A stretch of DNA of 64,000 nucleotides. Origin: Methanolobus sp. (GTDB lineage: Archaea > Halobacteriota > Methanosarcinia > Methanosarcinales > Methanosarcinaceae). The notes beneath the pieces were generated by a model that was not told where the DNA came from, did not search any database, and saw only the letters and a program-made list of their open reading frames with translations. This document shows, piece after piece, positions 41,537-48,564 of the stretch (within the stretch, counting starts at the first letter, position 1; the number at the start of each line of letters is the position of its first letter). The position numbers were made by a program, and so were the translations under genes. The stretch covers positions 67,619 through 131,618 of the forward strand of contig NZ_JADQBY010000021.1 in the NCBI RefSeq assembly GCF_016278385.1. Reading direction: 5' to 3'.

Positions 41537-42319
41537 TTAGAAGGAGCGATCTCCTCCAAGTAGGCCACCCAGTGCGCCTCCGCCAATTCCTGCTATACCT
41601 TTTGATTCATCCCTTTTACTGCCACTGCCATATCTTGATGCAGCAACAATTCTGTCAGCAAGACGTGAGAACGGCAGGCTCTGGAGGTAGACTTTTCCGG
41701 GACCGGTGAGACTTGCAAGTACAAGTCCTTCTCCTCCAAAGAGTGCATTCTTAAATCCACCTGCCAGCTGTATATCATAGTTCACACTTTCGGCAAATGC
41801 AGTTATGCATCCGGTATCAACTCTGATAGTTTCTCCAGCGGCAAGATCTTTTTCCACAATAGTCCCGCCTGCATGTACAAAGGCAAGACCGTCTCCCTTT
41901 AGTCTCTGGAGTATGAAACCTTCTCCTCCAAAGAGTCCCGCTCCTATTTTCTTGGTAAGTGCTATTTCTATGTCTACACCCTTTGCTGCGCATAGAAATG
42001 AATCTTTCTGACACAGAAAACTGCCTCCAAGTTTTCCCAGATCAAGTGCTATTACTTTTCCCGGATATGGGGCTCCAAAGGCAACGTAGCCTTTTCCTGA
42101 ACCTTCATGAATAAAATTAGTGATGAAGAAACTTTCACCGGTCACTGCACGTTTCAGACCTTTGAGAATGCCACCACCGGTAGATGTTTCCATTTTAATT
42201 CCGGGACCCATATACATCATTGCACCTGCTTCTGCTCGTACAGCTTCATTGGTATCAAGCTCGATCTCTACAAGTTGCATTTCATTACCGATTATTTCAT
42301 AGTCTATTTCGTCTGCCAT
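41537..42319 (-). CDS. AIM24/TIGR00266 family protein
   Basis: 260 aa; VRAEAGAMMYMGPGIKMETSTGGG, FGAPYPGKVIALDLGKLGGSFLCQKDSFLCAAKGVDIE, GLGGEGFILQ-type motifs. Confidence 0.85.
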   Translation of the reverse strand: MADEIDYEIIGNEMQLVEIELDTNEAVRAEAGAMMYMGPGIKMETSTGGGILKGLKRAVTGESFFITNFIHEGSGKGYVAFGAPYPGKVIALDLGKLGGSFLCQKDSFLCAAKGVDIEIALTKKIGAGLFGGEGFILQRLKGDGLAFVHAGGTIVEKDLAAGETIRVDTGCITAFAESVNYDIQLAGGFKNALFGGEGLVLASLTGPGKVYLQSLPFSRLADRIVAASRYGSGSKRDESKGIAGIGGGALGGLLGGDRSF

Positions 42320-42558
42320 TTTAATTCCTCAGTATAAAATTCAAAAACATCTGATAGATATTTGAGCTACCAATATTTATGGTTTTATCTTCTAGTTCAA
42401 AAAATGATGCATTAGCACAACTCAACTTGAATAGTTTAATATATCTCCTGTGCGTAACCACCAGTTGATAAGTGTGTACCGAAAAAAATTTCCCACTTCA
42501 TTTGACACATTTCTGACTTGCATAGCAGGCAAGGAAACATGGCGGGAGGACTTGCGAC

Positions 42559-43965
42559 TTGGCTGAAAAATTAAACATACCTGAATCAGATATTCTTGAT
42601 TTCAGCTCAAACATAAATCCTCTGGGCACACCCTTCAATTTTCATGAGGATAAAATAGACCTTGAGAGGGTTTTTTTTGCTTCGATTGAGAAATTAGGTC
42701 AATATCCTGACAATAGATATCTTGAACTCAGGAATGCTGCTGCTGCTTTTGCCGGTCATGGAGTTTCCTTTGAAAACATAGTTCTAGGCAATGGTTCATG
42801 TGAGTTATTGCACCTTGCAATACAATCTGTTGTACAAGAAGATGATTTGATAATCGTTCCTTCTCCTTCATCCGGTCAATATCGACATATATCTGAACTT
42901 TGTGGTGCCCGTATCCATTCATTTACTTCAGCGGAGATTCTGAATCTTCCTAAAATGACACTGGACAGAGCAAGAGTAGTAATTATTCAGAACCCGAATG
43001 ACCCCACTGGTGAACTGTTATCAAAGGATGCACTGCTCAATCTTGCAAAGAAGTGTGCTGAACATGGTACTTTGCTCATAGTTGATGAATCATCTATAGA
43101 ACTTGCGAATCCTGATATGAGTATAGTTGATATGACATTGGATAATGATCATCTTCTGGTTATCAGGTCTGTTTCAGATATCATTTCTATTCCTGGTATC
43201 AGGCTGGCCTATGGTATTGCATCCAGGTCCATGGCAGGCATTTTAAATGCTGCTCGTCTTTCATGGAATATAGGTGCAACAGAAGAAGCAATTGGAATTG
43301 CATTCTTTTCAATGGACGGTGGACCGAATTCAAAGTACCTGTCAAAGGCAAGGGCTTTAATTGAAAAAGAAAGACAATACATAATCAAACGCTTTTCAGG
43401 CATCTATGGTTTTGATCCGGTTAAAAGCAGTGCAAATTACCTGCTTGTGGATGTCAGGGACCTTTTCCTGGACTCGGTAAGACTTACAGAAGGACTTGCT
43501 TCTCATGGTATAATTATCCGTGAGTGCAGTGATTTTTTCAATGGTGAAAAAAGATATGTAAGAATATCTGTAAAGCCCAGAAATGATTTTGAAAAACTGA
43601 TTCGAACTCTTAACGATGTATTTGCCGAGTTAAGCAGGGAAGATGCCAGGGAAAAACTTGAAGAAACCATTGAACATGGTGGTGCAGCTTCTGCAGGTCG
43701 CGGTTCCTGTGAATATTATCCATGTCATTTCGCAGGTCAGGACTGTACTTTCTGTTTCTGTCCATTTTATGCTTGTGAAGAAGAGAGAACAGGCGGCAAA
43801 TGGATTGAAAGTTCCACAGGCGGACAGGTATGGAGTTGTGAATATTGTACATTATTGCATAGACCAAAAGTCGCCAAGATGGTGCTTGATGCACTGATGG
43901 CAGACGGAGACACTGACGATAATATAAGGAGGGCATGGAAGGAAATCATTTTGCCGCAACTTTGA
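42559..43965 (+). CDS. CobD/HisC-like aminotransferase fold paralog lacking the PLP lysine, with Cys-rich C-terminal domain
   Basis: 468 aa; DFSSNINPLGTPF, PDNRYLELRNAAAAF, NPNDPTGELL; K-motif replaced (RSVSDIISIPGIRLAYG); C-term CEYYPCHFAGQDCTFCFCPFYACEEERTGGKW; only a TTG start is available in frame. Confidence 0.8.
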   Translation: MAEKLNIPESDILDFSSNINPLGTPFNFHEDKIDLERVFFASIEKLGQYPDNRYLELRNAAAAFAGHGVSFENIVLGNGSCELLHLAIQSVVQEDDLIIVPSPSSGQYRHISELCGARIHSFTSAEILNLPKMTLDRARVVIIQNPNDPTGELLSKDALLNLAKKCAEHGTLLIVDESSIELANPDMSIVDMTLDNDHLLVIRSVSDIISIPGIRLAYGIASRSMAGILNAARLSWNIGATEEAIGIAFFSMDGGPNSKYLSKARALIEKERQYIIKRFSGIYGFDPVKSSANYLLVDVRDLFLDSVRLTEGLASHGIIIRECSDFFNGEKRYVRISVKPRNDFEKLIRTLNDVFAELSREDAREKLEETIEHGGAASAGRGSCEYYPCHFAGQDCTFCFCPFYACEEERTGGKWIESSTGGQVWSCEYCTLLHRPKVAKMVLDALMADGDTDDNIRRAWKEIILPQL

Positions 43966-44007
43966 TCCATCGTATGGCTCAACTAAACAGGTTAATATAT
44001 TTCCTAT

Positions 44008-45522
44008 TTGCTACATGCTTTGATTACTGTGACAGACCAAAGATCACCTCTCCCGGTAAAGAAATATCTTTTAAGCCTTGAGCCATGTGCTCATGGCGGA
44101 CTGATTAGAAAAAGTTCCCAGAAATACGGGATTCCAGAGTCAGAAATGCTGGATGCAAGTGCAAGCCTGAATCCTCTTGGAACACCCTTTGAACATCCGG
44201 ATTCGGAACTTGATCTTCAGGACCTTCTCAGGACAGGACTTGAAAAACTGGAACAATATCCTGATAACCGTTATCTCGAATATAGAACAGCTGCAGCTTC
44301 TTTTGTAGGTATGGGCACAACATATGAGAACATAGTTCCCGGCAACGGCTCTACCGAAATAATCCGGCTGGTTGCAGAGTGCGTTATAGCTGAAGGGGAT
44401 GTTGTTCTTATTCCAAAGCCTACTTTCAGTGAATATGAGATGCAATGCAAAGTAATGGGTGCAGAGATCAAATACGTTGACCAGGAAGATATCTTCGATC
44501 TCGACGGTAAAACGCTCGATGAAGCCAAAATTATTTTTGTGTGTAATCCCAATAATCCGACTGGTAAATTATTCTTAAAGGAGCAGATCGAGGAGCTTGC
44601 AGAGAAATGTGCAACTCATAAGACTATCCTCTTTATTGACGAGGCCTACATTGAACTTGCAGACCCGCAGCAGAGTGTTGCATATCTTGTTGAGGGCAAC
44701 GACTATCTTTTCATCCAGCGTTCCCTTACGAAATCCTTTGCAATTCCTGGTATTAGAATGGGTTTTGGAGTAGCCTCAAGGAAATTTGCACGTGTGCTTA
44801 ATAATGCAAGGCTTTCCTGGAACATGGGATGTGTTTCAGATACTATTGCAACTGCTCTTTTGAATATGGAAGGCGGGGCAAACAGCAAGTATCTCAGAGA
44901 TTCAAGGGATTTCATAGCAAAGGAACGTGAGTTCCTCATGCAAAAGCTTTCACGCAGGGGTTTCAAACCCATCGAGAGCAGTGTAAATTACATTTTTGTT
45001 GACATATCTGATCTTTCTATGAATTCTTCCGAGCTTGCAGAACGCATGGCTTCACATGGTGTACTGATCCGTGATTGCAGTTCTTTTCAGGATATAGGTA
45101 AGGATTACATAAGAATAGCTATACGGAACAGGGAAGAGAATGAGCGTATTGCATCTACTATTCGTCAGGTCATATACGAATGGGGTCGTGAACAGGCAGA
45201 ATTCCAACTAGGGGAAAATATCAAGGTAGCTTCAGACTGTGGTCGCAGGGGCAGTAATACAGACTGTGATTATTATCCATGTCATTTTGAAGGACAGGAT
45301 TGTACTTTCTGTTTCTGTCCGTTTTACCCGTGTGAGGATTCCCGTACCGGAGGCAGTTGGGTGGAAAGTTCTAGTGGAGGGAAGGTATGGAGCTGTCTTA
45401 ATTGTAACATAGTCCATGAGGAGAAAGTCGTTGATGAATTGTTGTCAGTGTTTACTACCGATGGGCTTGATGAGAAGAGCATAAAGAAAGCGTGGGAACA
45501 CGTCATGGAGACTAACTTATGA
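44008..45522 (+). CDS. cobD: L-threonine-O-3-phosphate decarboxylase-like (CobD) with Cys-rich C-terminal domain
   Basis: 504 aa; DASASLNPLGTPF, NPNNPTGKLF, DEAYIEL, RSLTKSFAIPGIRMGFG with the catalytic Lys; adjacent to cbiB-cobZ-cobS-cobY. Confidence 0.88.
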   Translation: MLHALITVTDQRSPLPVKKYLLSLEPCAHGGLIRKSSQKYGIPESEMLDASASLNPLGTPFEHPDSELDLQDLLRTGLEKLEQYPDNRYLEYRTAAASFVGMGTTYENIVPGNGSTEIIRLVAECVIAEGDVVLIPKPTFSEYEMQCKVMGAEIKYVDQEDIFDLDGKTLDEAKIIFVCNPNNPTGKLFLKEQIEELAEKCATHKTILFIDEAYIELADPQQSVAYLVEGNDYLFIQRSLTKSFAIPGIRMGFGVASRKFARVLNNARLSWNMGCVSDTIATALLNMEGGANSKYLRDSRDFIAKEREFLMQKLSRRGFKPIESSVNYIFVDISDLSMNSSELAERMASHGVLIRDCSSFQDIGKDYIRIAIRNREENERIASTIRQVIYEWGREQAEFQLGENIKVASDCGRRGSNTDCDYYPCHFEGQDCTFCFCPFYPCEDSRTGGSWVESSSGGKVWSCLNCNIVHEEKVVDELLSVFTTDGLDEKSIKKAWEHVMETNL

Positions 45523-46499
45523 TCCTGCCGGTACAGGCTGATGCAAGCGAACTTGTAATTGTATTGCTGCTGGCCTATGCCCTAGATCTGGTATTCTGTG
45601 AGCCACCTGCTGCAATTCATCCCGTGGTGTGGATGGGCAGGTTAATAGCCTTTTTCAAAAAGAATGTTCCAAAGACAAACAGGAAGCTCTATGGAATATT
45701 TATGGGACTTGTTACTATATTATTTGGTGCCCTCATAGCATATGTTGTATTATATTTTATGGGGATTGAAAGTATTCCATCACCACTGCGTTATCTTGTT
45801 GCAGCTTATTTCCTTAAGGCAACCTTTGCGATACGCTGTCTCTATGGTGCTGCTGATGAGGTAAGAACAGAACTGGATGCAGGAAGACTTGATGGTGCAA
45901 GGCAAAAACTCTCTATGTATGTAAGCAGAGATACATCAAAACTTGATGAGAACCACGTTTCATCAGCAATCATTGAAACAACATCAGAGAACTATGTAGA
46001 TGGGATTCTTTCACCTCTGTTGTTCTACGCATGTTTCGGACCTTTCGGATTGATTGCAGCATATGTATTTAAGGCAACAAGCACCCTTGATTCCATGGTT
46101 GGATATACAGATGAGCGCCACCGGGATATAGGTTGGTTCTCTGCAAAGCTGGATGATGTACTCAACTGGCTACCTGCACGTATCTCTGTATTTTTCCTTT
46201 CTGCTGCAACGCTGGTTGTCGGTCTCTTTTACCGTAAGGTAAAAGTGCCTGATTTTAAAAGCGCATTCAAAAGTGGATTTGGTGATGGATTGAAAACACC
46301 CTCTCCAAATTCAGGTTATCCAATGGCATCAATAGCCGGTGCACTCAGGATAAAACTTGAAAAACCAAATACCTACGTCCTTGGTGATGGTTTTACTTAT
46401 CCTAAGTCTGACGATATCAAACTAACCAGTTGGATTATTTTGATAGCATCGTTATTTGCAATTATTGTATCTTTGTTTATAATTACAGCATATTCTTGA
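45519..46499 (+). CDS. cbiB: Adenosylcobinamide-phosphate synthase CbiB
   Basis: 326 aa; LDLVFCEPPAAIHPVVWMGRLI, TSENYVDGILSPLLFYACFGPFG, FKATSTLDSMVGYTDERH. Confidence 0.95.
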   Translation: MILPVQADASELVIVLLLAYALDLVFCEPPAAIHPVVWMGRLIAFFKKNVPKTNRKLYGIFMGLVTILFGALIAYVVLYFMGIESIPSPLRYLVAAYFLKATFAIRCLYGAADEVRTELDAGRLDGARQKLSMYVSRDTSKLDENHVSSAIIETTSENYVDGILSPLLFYACFGPFGLIAAYVFKATSTLDSMVGYTDERHRDIGWFSAKLDDVLNWLPARISVFFLSAATLVVGLFYRKVKVPDFKSAFKSGFGDGLKTPSPNSGYPMASIAGALRIKLEKPNTYVLGDGFTYPKSDDIKLTSWIILIASLFAIIVSLFIITAYS

Positions 46500-46532: not shown

Positions 46533-47129
46533 GTGATGGCAATGAAATTATCGGATATTGAATCAGAAGACCGGAAAAAAGACCAGTCAAAAGAACTGGA
46601 AGGTGAGATTACCAGGGATATTATTGAGATCCTTGAAGAGGAAGGAATAACAGTCCAGATGCTTGTTGACGCTGCACTGGAATTATATGCACCTCACCCG
46701 GGCATTGAAACTAAAGAACTTGCAGAGGCAAAGTTCCTTGATGAGCTTAATATTGCTATTTCCGATCCAAACCTCTGTCTACTGATATATTCAGGAATAT
46801 TACTGGAAAAAGAAGGCAGGCAGGGTAGATTACCTAACATCAGCAAAAGCTCTTATGAAAAGGATTTGACTTTTATAATTGCAGATGAGGTTCTTGGAAT
46901 GAGTATTTCCAAATATATCAGTGGTGATAAGGGTATGTTTGAATTCGTGCGTTTTGACAAGATGAAACCGGGAATTCTGGCAGAGCTTGGTCCTTTTATG
47001 GATGATATAATAGGAGGACTTATTGGTGGAGTGTCAGCTAATATGTACACAAGGGCAATGGCAGAAGCGGCTGCTTCAGCAAAGAAGCGCGAGACTAAAG
47101 AATCTAAAAGTGATGTGATTGCAGGATGA
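46533..47129 (+). CDS. cobZ: Alpha-ribazole-5'-phosphate phosphatase CobZ-like (phosphatidylglycerophosphatase A family)
   Basis: 198 aa located in a cobalamin operon between cbiB and cobS; HPGIETKELAEAKFLDELNIAISDPN. Confidence 0.78.
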   Translation: MMAMKLSDIESEDRKKDQSKELEGEITRDIIEILEEEGITVQMLVDAALELYAPHPGIETKELAEAKFLDELNIAISDPNLCLLIYSGILLEKEGRQGRLPNISKSSYEKDLTFIIADEVLGMSISKYISGDKGMFEFVRFDKMKPGILAELGPFMDDIIGGLIGGVSANMYTRAMAEAAASAKKRETKESKSDVIAG

Positions 47130-47938
47130 ATTCATTCTTATTAGCTCTTAGATCGAGTTTTGGCTTTCTTTCTACAATTCCCGTAGGAATTACCATGGAG
47201 GGGCTTGATGAGTTCTTCAAAAGGACTTACTTGCATCAGGTGGTTGGCTTAGTCCTTGGTCTTTTAATGGGTGCTGTGGCATACTTGCTCATAAGTTTTA
47301 TTCCAATATCTATAAGTGCTGTACTTATCATTGCTTTTGTTTATTATATTACAGGTCTTAATCATCTGGATGGTGTAGCCGACCTTGGTGACGGATTGAC
47401 TGCACATGGTTCTGTGGAGAAGAAACTGAAAGCCCTGAAAGATATGTCTCTGGGTATAGGTGGAGTTGCATATGCTGCTCTTATCATCATTGCATTCTAT
47501 GCAGCCCTCACTTCGTTATATAGTGAAGCTTCAATTCTGTATTCAACAAGTGCAGATGTGGCACGCATATTCTTTTTTGCAATGTTCGTATCAGAGCTAA
47601 GTGCAATGCAATCCATGCTGACAATTGCTGCATTTGGTAAATCCATACATGAAGGCCTGGGTTCAATACTTATAAACAATACCACAGTACCTAAATACCT
47701 TATAGGGTTTGTAATTGGTAGTATTGCATGCATTGGAGCATCTTCTTATCTTGGTCTTGGAGTAACAGGTATTTTAGCATTTATCGCAGCAATTGTGGCA
47801 ACATTTGTACTACTTAACATAAGCAACAGGCATTTTGGTGGTGTCAATGGTGATGTTATTGGTGCTTCCAATGAAGTTGGAAGGATAATATCATTGATAA
47901 CCATCACGCTGGTATTAATGTACGGAGGTATTGTTTGA
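47126..47938 (+). CDS. cobS: Adenosylcobinamide-GDP ribazoletransferase CobS
   Basis: 270 aa; SSFGFLSTIPVGI, YYITGLNHLDGVADLGDGLTAHGSVEKKLKALKDMSLG, GVNGDVIGASNE. Confidence 0.95.
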   Translation: MNSFLLALRSSFGFLSTIPVGITMEGLDEFFKRTYLHQVVGLVLGLLMGAVAYLLISFIPISISAVLIIAFVYYITGLNHLDGVADLGDGLTAHGSVEKKLKALKDMSLGIGGVAYAALIIIAFYAALTSLYSEASILYSTSADVARIFFFAMFVSELSAMQSMLTIAAFGKSIHEGLGSILINNTTVPKYLIGFVIGSIACIGASSYLGLGVTGILAFIAAIVATFVLLNISNRHFGGVNGDVIGASNEVGRIISLITITLVLMYGGIV

Positions 47939-48564
47939 ACGCTATAATAATGGCAGGGGGATTTGGAAGCAGGCTTGGTATGGGGGAAAAACCCTGCGTT
48001 GAACTATTAGGTAAACCTCTCATTTCCTATGTGATAGATGTCCTGGTAAGGACAGAAAGTATAGAGGACATATATGTTGCTGTATCTCCTGCAACCCCAA
48101 ATACAGCATCTTTTGTTGAGAATGAATATGATGGAACTGTACAGGTCATCCCTACTGGAGGAGGAAACTATGTTGGTGACATGGTCTATGCGGTAAAAGT
48201 TGCCGGTATCACAGAGCCACTACTTATTCTGATGGCGGATCTTCCGCTTCTTACTCCAGAGCTTCTTGAAAAAGTGATAGATGAGTACAATGTCTGTGGC
48301 AAGCCAGCAATGTCAATTTTCTCCCCTATATATGTTTGCAAAAGTCTGGGTATCAGGCCGGATACAGTTTTTAACTGGGACGGTAAACTGATAGTGCCTT
48401 CAGGAATCAATATACTGGATGGAAGTAATGTTGACCATGAGCAAGATTATGTCAGTTTTGTACTGGAAAACATTGAAATAGCTCTTAATATCAATACTCC
48501 TGAGGACCTTAAAAAGTGTAAGGATATGCTTCTTGAAAGAGGTATGGATCCTATCAAAAACTAA
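47935..48564 (+). CDS. cobY: Adenosylcobinamide-phosphate guanylyltransferase CobY
   Basis: 209 aa; AIIMAGGFGSRLGMGEKPCVELLGKPLI; ILMADLPLLTPELLEKV. Confidence 0.9.
   Translation: MNAIIMAGGFGSRLGMGEKPCVELLGKPLISYVIDVLVRTESIEDIYVAVSPATPNTASFVENEYDGTVQVIPTGGGNYVGDMVYAVKVAGITEPLLILMADLPLLTPELLEKVIDEYNVCGKPAMSIFSPIYVCKSLGIRPDTVFNWDGKLIVPSGINILDGSNVDHEQDYVSFVLENIEIALNINTPEDLKKCKDMLLERGMDPIKN

Follow-up and report, generated by a model that had tools for sequence, protein, structure and literature searches.

Why would a methanogen keep, directly upstream of an intact cobD, a second cobD that has lost the lysine on which the chemistry of the encoded enzyme depends? The question is raised by a 64,000-nucleotide stretch of a Methanolobus sp. 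draft genome (GCF_016278385.1, contig NZ_JADQBY010000021.1, positions 67,619 to 131,618), referred to here as the window and numbered from its first letter, with all features on the + strand. Its copy 1 (42559..43965, TTG start, 468 aa) is a CobD paralog without the Schiff-base lysine, and copy 2 (44008..45522, 504 aa) is an intact CobD. Comparison of this pair with related loci gives good support to a reading of copy 1 as a conserved pseudoenzyme that stems from the two-domain CobD of archaea. A limited literature search found no paper on cobD duplication in Methanolobus.

A CobD paralog without its Schiff-base lysine

The two open reading frames align end to end (45% identity, E 3e-163), as an earlier note on this DNA had described. 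Both encode a fold-type I aminotransferase domain (PF00155; 42589..43608 in copy 1) followed by a cysteine-rich small domain (PF04071; 43705..43902 in copy 1, with every Cys/His position intact), all above Pfam cut-offs, which is the two-domain architecture of MM2060-type archaeal CobD. Against the curated equivalog cut-off of the NCBIfam model TIGR01140 (290.55 bits), copy 2 passes with 296.8 bits and copy 1 falls well short with 219.6. The Lys-to-Asp replacement that the note had reported in copy 1 is present: the motif reads RSVSDIISIPGIRLAYG, with Asp207 encoded by GAT (43177..43179), where copy 2 has RSLTKSFAIPGIRMGFG, with Lys242 encoded by AAA (44731..44733), and both residues align with the column of Lys216 in Salmonella CobD.

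The tandem pair recurs in all 27 Methanolobus-genus genomes, that of the window included, and the lysine is found in 0/27 copies 1 and 27/27 copies 2, which is more than chance would produce. Asn replaces it in 24 genomes and Asp, Gly and Arg in one each, so that the canonical residue, sought in copy 1 of the relatives as a sign of sequencing error in the window, occurs in none of them. The same order of copy 1, cobD and cbiB is found in Methanomethylovorans with the lysine replaced by His (six genomes). In Methanohalophilus (loci L113 and L121, 6896-11415), a divergent Lys-less copy, with Asp, Asn, Thr or Tyr at this position, adjoins cbiB-cobZ-cobS-cobY and overlaps the start codon of cbiB. 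A Lys-bearing cobD accompanies the Lys-less copy in every genome checked, i.e., 27/27 for Methanolobus together with the checked Methanomethylovorans and Methanohalophilus. Methanococcoides and Methanohalobium carry two cobD copies each, both Lys-bearing, and most Methanosarcina genomes searched have one. In Methanococcoides (L059:6905-11735), a cobY-like gene lies between the two Lys-bearing copies, the second of which adjoins cbiB.

By alignment with Salmonella CobD, many of the residues lost in the Lys-less copies fall around the pyridoxal phosphate (PLP) site, namely Thr139, Phe140 (Phe108), Ala213 (Ala187, replaced by Ser in all three groups), Thr241, Lys242 and Gly252; Phe108 and Thr139 are retained in none of the 27 Methanolobus copies 1. 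We take Phe108 to be the residue that stacks on the PLP ring, and our PLP-contact and in-trans assignments are presumed from knowledge of the family. Since both the Schiff-base lysine and this ring-stacking residue are gone, copy 1 should be incapable of PLP-dependent decarboxylation. The accompanying change of DEAY to DESS is also there, but loss of the Tyr alone says little, because the same position is Phe in most CobDs, including that of Salmonella. More telling are the Ala187-to-Ser change beside the lost Tyr (27/27) and the loss of Phe108. The former is convergent, occurring in each of the three Lys-less groups (27/27, 5/5 and 5/5), whereas Ala stands in 66/66 family members. Other columns are kept in 27/27 Methanolobus copies 1, namely Tyr56, Asp185, Ser213, Arg224, Arg323, Arg337 and Trp246. 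The Tyr56 column presumably reaches, in the CobD fold, the PLP site of the partner subunit.

Over the 47 Lys-less rows of the alignment, which represent about 41 distinct copies, the lysine position is occupied by Asn (26), His (11), Asp (6), Thr, Tyr, Gly and Arg (one each), and this variety argues against a shared catalytic role for the replacing residue. The alignment, which tests sequence and does not model the pocket, contains no substitute Schiff-base lysine that is conserved and specific to Lys-less copies, an alternative that would have spoken against a lost PLP site. The candidates K132, K139, K331, K366 and one N-terminal site, at which at least 85% of copies 1 carry Lys, were rejected, none being specific to Lys-less copies generally; at K331, for instance, 26/66 family members and 18/27 copies 2 have Lys as well.

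Origin of the losses and constraint on the two domains

In a tree of 67 rows, the copies 1 of Methanolobus and Methanomethylovorans form one clade (100/100), and the Lys-less copies of Methanohalophilus group with the Lys-bearing copy b of Methanococcoides (100/100). A single origin of all Lys-less copies is rejected (approximately unbiased [AU] test, p-AU 7.5e-5). As judged from this phylogeny, the lysine was lost twice independently, and the Methanohalophilus loss struck another cobD copy, a placement that calls for the usual caution because its branch is long. A topology that joins copy 1 to copy 2 in a single clade ranked below the best tree without being rejected (p 0.119).

The two domains of the Lys-less copies have fared very differently. 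Among columns invariant in at least 95% of 66 Lys-bearing relatives (74 in the aminotransferase domain and 28 in the C-terminal domain), the three Lys-less groups have lost 15, 20 and 30 of the 74 versus 0/28 (Fisher p 0.0096, 0.0014 and 1.3e-5, respectively). Copy 2 of Methanolobus and that of Methanomethylovorans have each lost 1/74. Two apparent C-terminal losses specific to copy 2, L482 and W496, were discarded as artefacts, since the loci concerned break off within copy 2. In the C-terminal domain, each of the 10 Cys/His positions is invariant in 47/47 Lys-less rows. The predicted fold of copy 1 is intact (AlphaFold2 mean predicted local distance difference test score [pLDDT] 85.4, predicted template modelling score [pTM] 0.83), the region of the C-terminal domain being less certain, and its best match in the PDB is Salmonella CobD 1lkc (E 2.2e-24, target TM 0.85).

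With IQ-TREE codon models, the ratio of nonsynonymous to synonymous substitution rates (dN/dS, omega) in the aminotransferase domain is 0.129 for copy 1 and 0.069 for copy 2, and in the C-terminal domain 0.050 and 0.045, respectively; these omega values are approximate because several dS are near or above 1. For the aminotransferase domain of the other Lys-less copies, omega is 0.178 in Methanomethylovorans and 0.216 in Methanohalophilus, and omega = 1 is rejected. A purpose-written branch model gives 0.11 for the window's own copy 1 branch and rejects omega = 1 as well (twice the log-likelihood difference [2dlnL], 11.2). By these estimates, purifying selection acts on the Lys-less copies, with an omega of 0.13-0.22 in the aminotransferase domain, far from the value near 1 that the earlier note had named as a mark of decay.

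Further CobD-like proteins occur in the order. In Methanolobus vulcani B1d, a third CobD-like gene (L035:1657-3165), Lys-less and strongly diverged, lies outside the cob cluster next to an RNase HII-like gene, with its C-terminal Cys/His positions intact. In another family of the order (L038:1966-2532, L039 and L040), a protein of 188-211 aa consists of the small aminotransferase subdomain and the Cys-rich domain, and a separate CobD is without the Cys-rich domain; the Cys-rich part can thus stand alone.

The 5' end of copy 1 and its neighbourhood

Upstream of copy 1 lies a conserved promoter-like element, ACAACTCAACTTGAATAG together with the TATA-like TTTAATATA (42417..42443). It belongs to a block of about 100 bp (42413-42520), taking in the TATA-like box and the ancestral 5' coding end, which is conserved far above its surroundings among Methanolobus species, with about 0.86-0.99 identity per 15-nt step in 16 species and 0.99 in its core. 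The pattern matches once in the window and once per genome in each of 19 searched genomes of Methanolobus, a short way upstream of copy 1, with no match for the reversed-pattern control; a regulon sharing the element was considered and dropped on the basis of this single match per genome. An Rfam search of 42300-44200 returned no match.

The 5' end of the gene itself has been damaged in the window. Alignment with 10 relatives identifies 42474..42566 as the remnant of an ancestral 5' end, now shifted in frame: in these relatives, the full-length frame opens with the GTG that corresponds to 42474, open frames run to about 509 codons, and codon-position identities of 0.95/0.93/0.78 indicate that the upstream stretch is coding. 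A poly-A run (42482..42488) has 7 A versus 6 in the aligned relatives, which amounts to a +1 frameshift, and two in-frame stops, TGA (42514-42516) and TAG (42523-42525), follow upstream of the TTG; a genome search with copy 2 as the query also places one TGA and one TAG inside the window's copy 1. The codons for His-Gly-Gly (42538..42546; Salmonella His8-Gly9-Gly10) are still in frame, 5' of the only possible start. Among the species compared, only that of the window shows the frameshift and stops, which cut off the N-terminal arm of about 30 residues. The 468-aa frame is open, as the earlier note stated, but it is not of ancestral length; the note had recognised neither this damage nor the extension of the lysine loss to whole genera. 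A GGAGG (42545..42549), putatively acting as a Shine-Dalgarno sequence, lies 9 nt before the TTG, and the shifted upstream frame ends at a TGA (42564-42566) very close to the TTG (42559), an arrangement that could permit re-initiation there.

Downstream, the true start of copy 2 is probably, by homology, the GTG at 44029. The stop of copy 2 is overlapped by the start of cbiB, encoding adenosylcobinamide-phosphate synthase (45519..46499, TIGR00380). Then come cobZ for alpha-ribazole phosphatase (46533..47129, TIGR03161 above cut-off), cobS for adenosylcobinamide-GDP ribazoletransferase (47126..47938, TIGR00317 above cut-off) and a gene for a cobY-like guanylyltransferase (47935..48564), which scores 124.3 bits with NF045495, under its cut-off of 250. 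The closest named relative is M. profundi (78% for copy 1).

A proposed non-catalytic partner for CobD and the competing explanations

The earlier note proposed a pseudoenzyme that may serve nucleotide-loop assembly as a regulator, as a scaffold or by binding a ligand, and this is still the best reading, strengthened by a gene order that extends over three genera, by the second independent loss and by the invariance of the C-terminal Cys/His positions; the particular role is inferred. Copy 1 would most likely be a non-catalytic partner that brings its C-terminal metal-binding domain to CobD/CbiB function, as suggested by its operon position, the retained fold and Tyr56 column, the invariant C-terminal domain and the precedents of LCB1 and deoxyhypusine synthase. 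Copy 1 would be kept as the partner of the adjoining intact CobD, and possibly of CbiB too, contributing fold, dimer surface and metal-binding domain, and could control or channel the supply of L-threonine-phosphate (L-Thr-P) and aminopropanol-phosphate to the assembly of the nucleotide loop, in a role akin to that of LCB1 towards LCB2 in serine palmitoyltransferase. Taken whole, the idea of a conserved pseudoenzyme partner of CobD that controls or channels aminopropanol-phosphate supply has, in our judgement, about an even chance of being right. That copy 1 lacks PLP, binds metal and acts with a partner protein is what we infer, as are the direction that regulation would take and the translation of copy 1 by the window's species.

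Several observations weigh against a partner of this kind. The Lys-bearing cobD of Methanohalophilus is a lone gene elsewhere, about 24 kb off where it lies on the same contig. Asp185, Ser213, Arg224, Arg323 and Arg337, all of the substrate pocket, are kept in every Methanolobus copy 1, and together with the convergent Ala187-to-Ser change they could reflect a re-used ligand site and not a pure scaffold. Finally, the N-terminal arm is missing in the window's species, which may either produce a truncated protein or be in the course of losing copy 1.

The chief rival supposes a division of labour in which an ancestral bifunctional CobD gave rise to copy 1 as the L-Thr kinase and copy 2 as the L-Thr-P decarboxylase. 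It gains its standing from Methanosarcina mazei MM2060, which titles cited in PMC9986279 describe as a bifunctional L-Thr kinase/L-Thr-P decarboxylase that requires metallocenters for optimal activity. In haloarchaea, the L-Thr kinase step is among the pathway gaps listed in PMC8305020, and copy 1 retains the C-terminal domain along with Arg323, Arg337 and Ser213 on the phosphate/carboxylate side. No reciprocal loss is seen, however, since copy 2 keeps 73/74 aminotransferase invariants; several copies 1 have a degenerate N-terminal His-Gly-Gly arm on the substrate side, an arm that Methanohalophilus and the window's frame lack, and one copy is mostly enough for the Methanosarcina relatives. 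A kinase-only copy 1 is therefore possible but less supported than a partner, and we regard it as unlikely. A stand-alone sensor of PLP, pyridoxamine phosphate, L-Thr-P, a nucleotide or a corrinoid precursor, or else lysine-independent chemistry in a remodelled pocket, would account for the convergent Ser at position 187 and for the almost general retention of Ser213 on the phosphate side. ColD-type dehydratases have His in place of the lysine, as do the Methanomethylovorans copies. The inconstancy of the residue at the lysine position, the loss of the ring-stacking Phe and that of Arg224 in 2/3 Lys-less groups all speak against such a function, and what the groups share unchanged is the C-terminal domain and not the pocket, so that this explanation appears quite improbable.

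Slow decay of a pseudogene, already broken in the window's species, would explain the frameshift, the two stops and the missing N-terminal residues, and it fits a copy 1 aminotransferase omega about twice that of copy 2. Yet the other 26 Methanolobus-genus genomes have open frames without inner stops, as do the Methanomethylovorans and Methanohalophilus copies read; omega stays within 0.02-0.27, with neutrality rejected on the window branch and for the aminotransferase domain of the other genera, and the core of the promoter block is nearly identical among species. Decay is accordingly a very unlikely account of copy 1 as a whole, although the window's allele alone may have been recently inactivated. 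A sequencing or assembly error, which a draft genome and a poly-A indel might suggest, has virtually no chance of being the explanation: it is refuted for the lysine by its loss in 27 genomes, complete single-contig ones included, and in two other genera, and the two stops come from substitutions and not from errors in a homopolymer.

Known systems help to place the favoured non-catalytic partner of CobD. MM2060 is a direct homologue, and the Methanosarcina CobDs in the alignment share the aminotransferase and Cys-rich architecture; copy 1 differs in having neither Schiff-base lysine nor pocket aromatic, and it occurs alongside an intact copy. Salmonella CobD (1lkc, 1lc7 and 1lc8), the source of the closest structural match, is without the C-terminal domain, whereas copy 1 is without Lys216 and Phe108. 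Haloferax CobD1/CobD2 (HVO_0591 and HVO_0593; PMC8305020) offer another archaeal CobD paralog pair within a cob cluster. The LCB1 subunit of serine palmitoyltransferase lacks the PLP lysine and functions as a heterodimer with LCB2 (PMC3794620); like copy 1, it is a PLP-fold paralog kept beside a lysine-bearing partner, but the heterodimer is established for LCB1/LCB2 only, in another pathway and subfamily, with no sign of a shared origin of the loss. In trypanosomatids, the dead deoxyhypusine synthase paralog DHSp activates the live enzyme 3000-fold (PMC3663545). DHSp and the AdoMetDC prozyme resemble copy 1 as dead paralogs conserved with a live enzyme. They activate that enzyme as heteromers, as copy 1 might, but their folds are unrelated to its own.

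A homology-based annotation would name copy 1 a threonine-phosphate decarboxylase, a mechanism that should be closed to it. We tentatively suggest that CobD is heteromeric in several methylotrophic methanogens and that a dead paralog, which arose at least twice, would be its metal-domain subunit and would gate the production of L-Thr-P/aminopropanol-phosphate or pass it to CbiB. If true, the B12 pathway would have its own equivalent of LCB1/LCB2 and of the prozymes. Two independent losses, an untouched putative metal-binding domain and an intact copy in each checked genome together suggest a PLP-independent function of archaeal CobD, which opens two things to direct test: the role of the Cys/His domain in the bifunctional CobD of methanogens, and the seat of the kinase activity reported for that enzyme.
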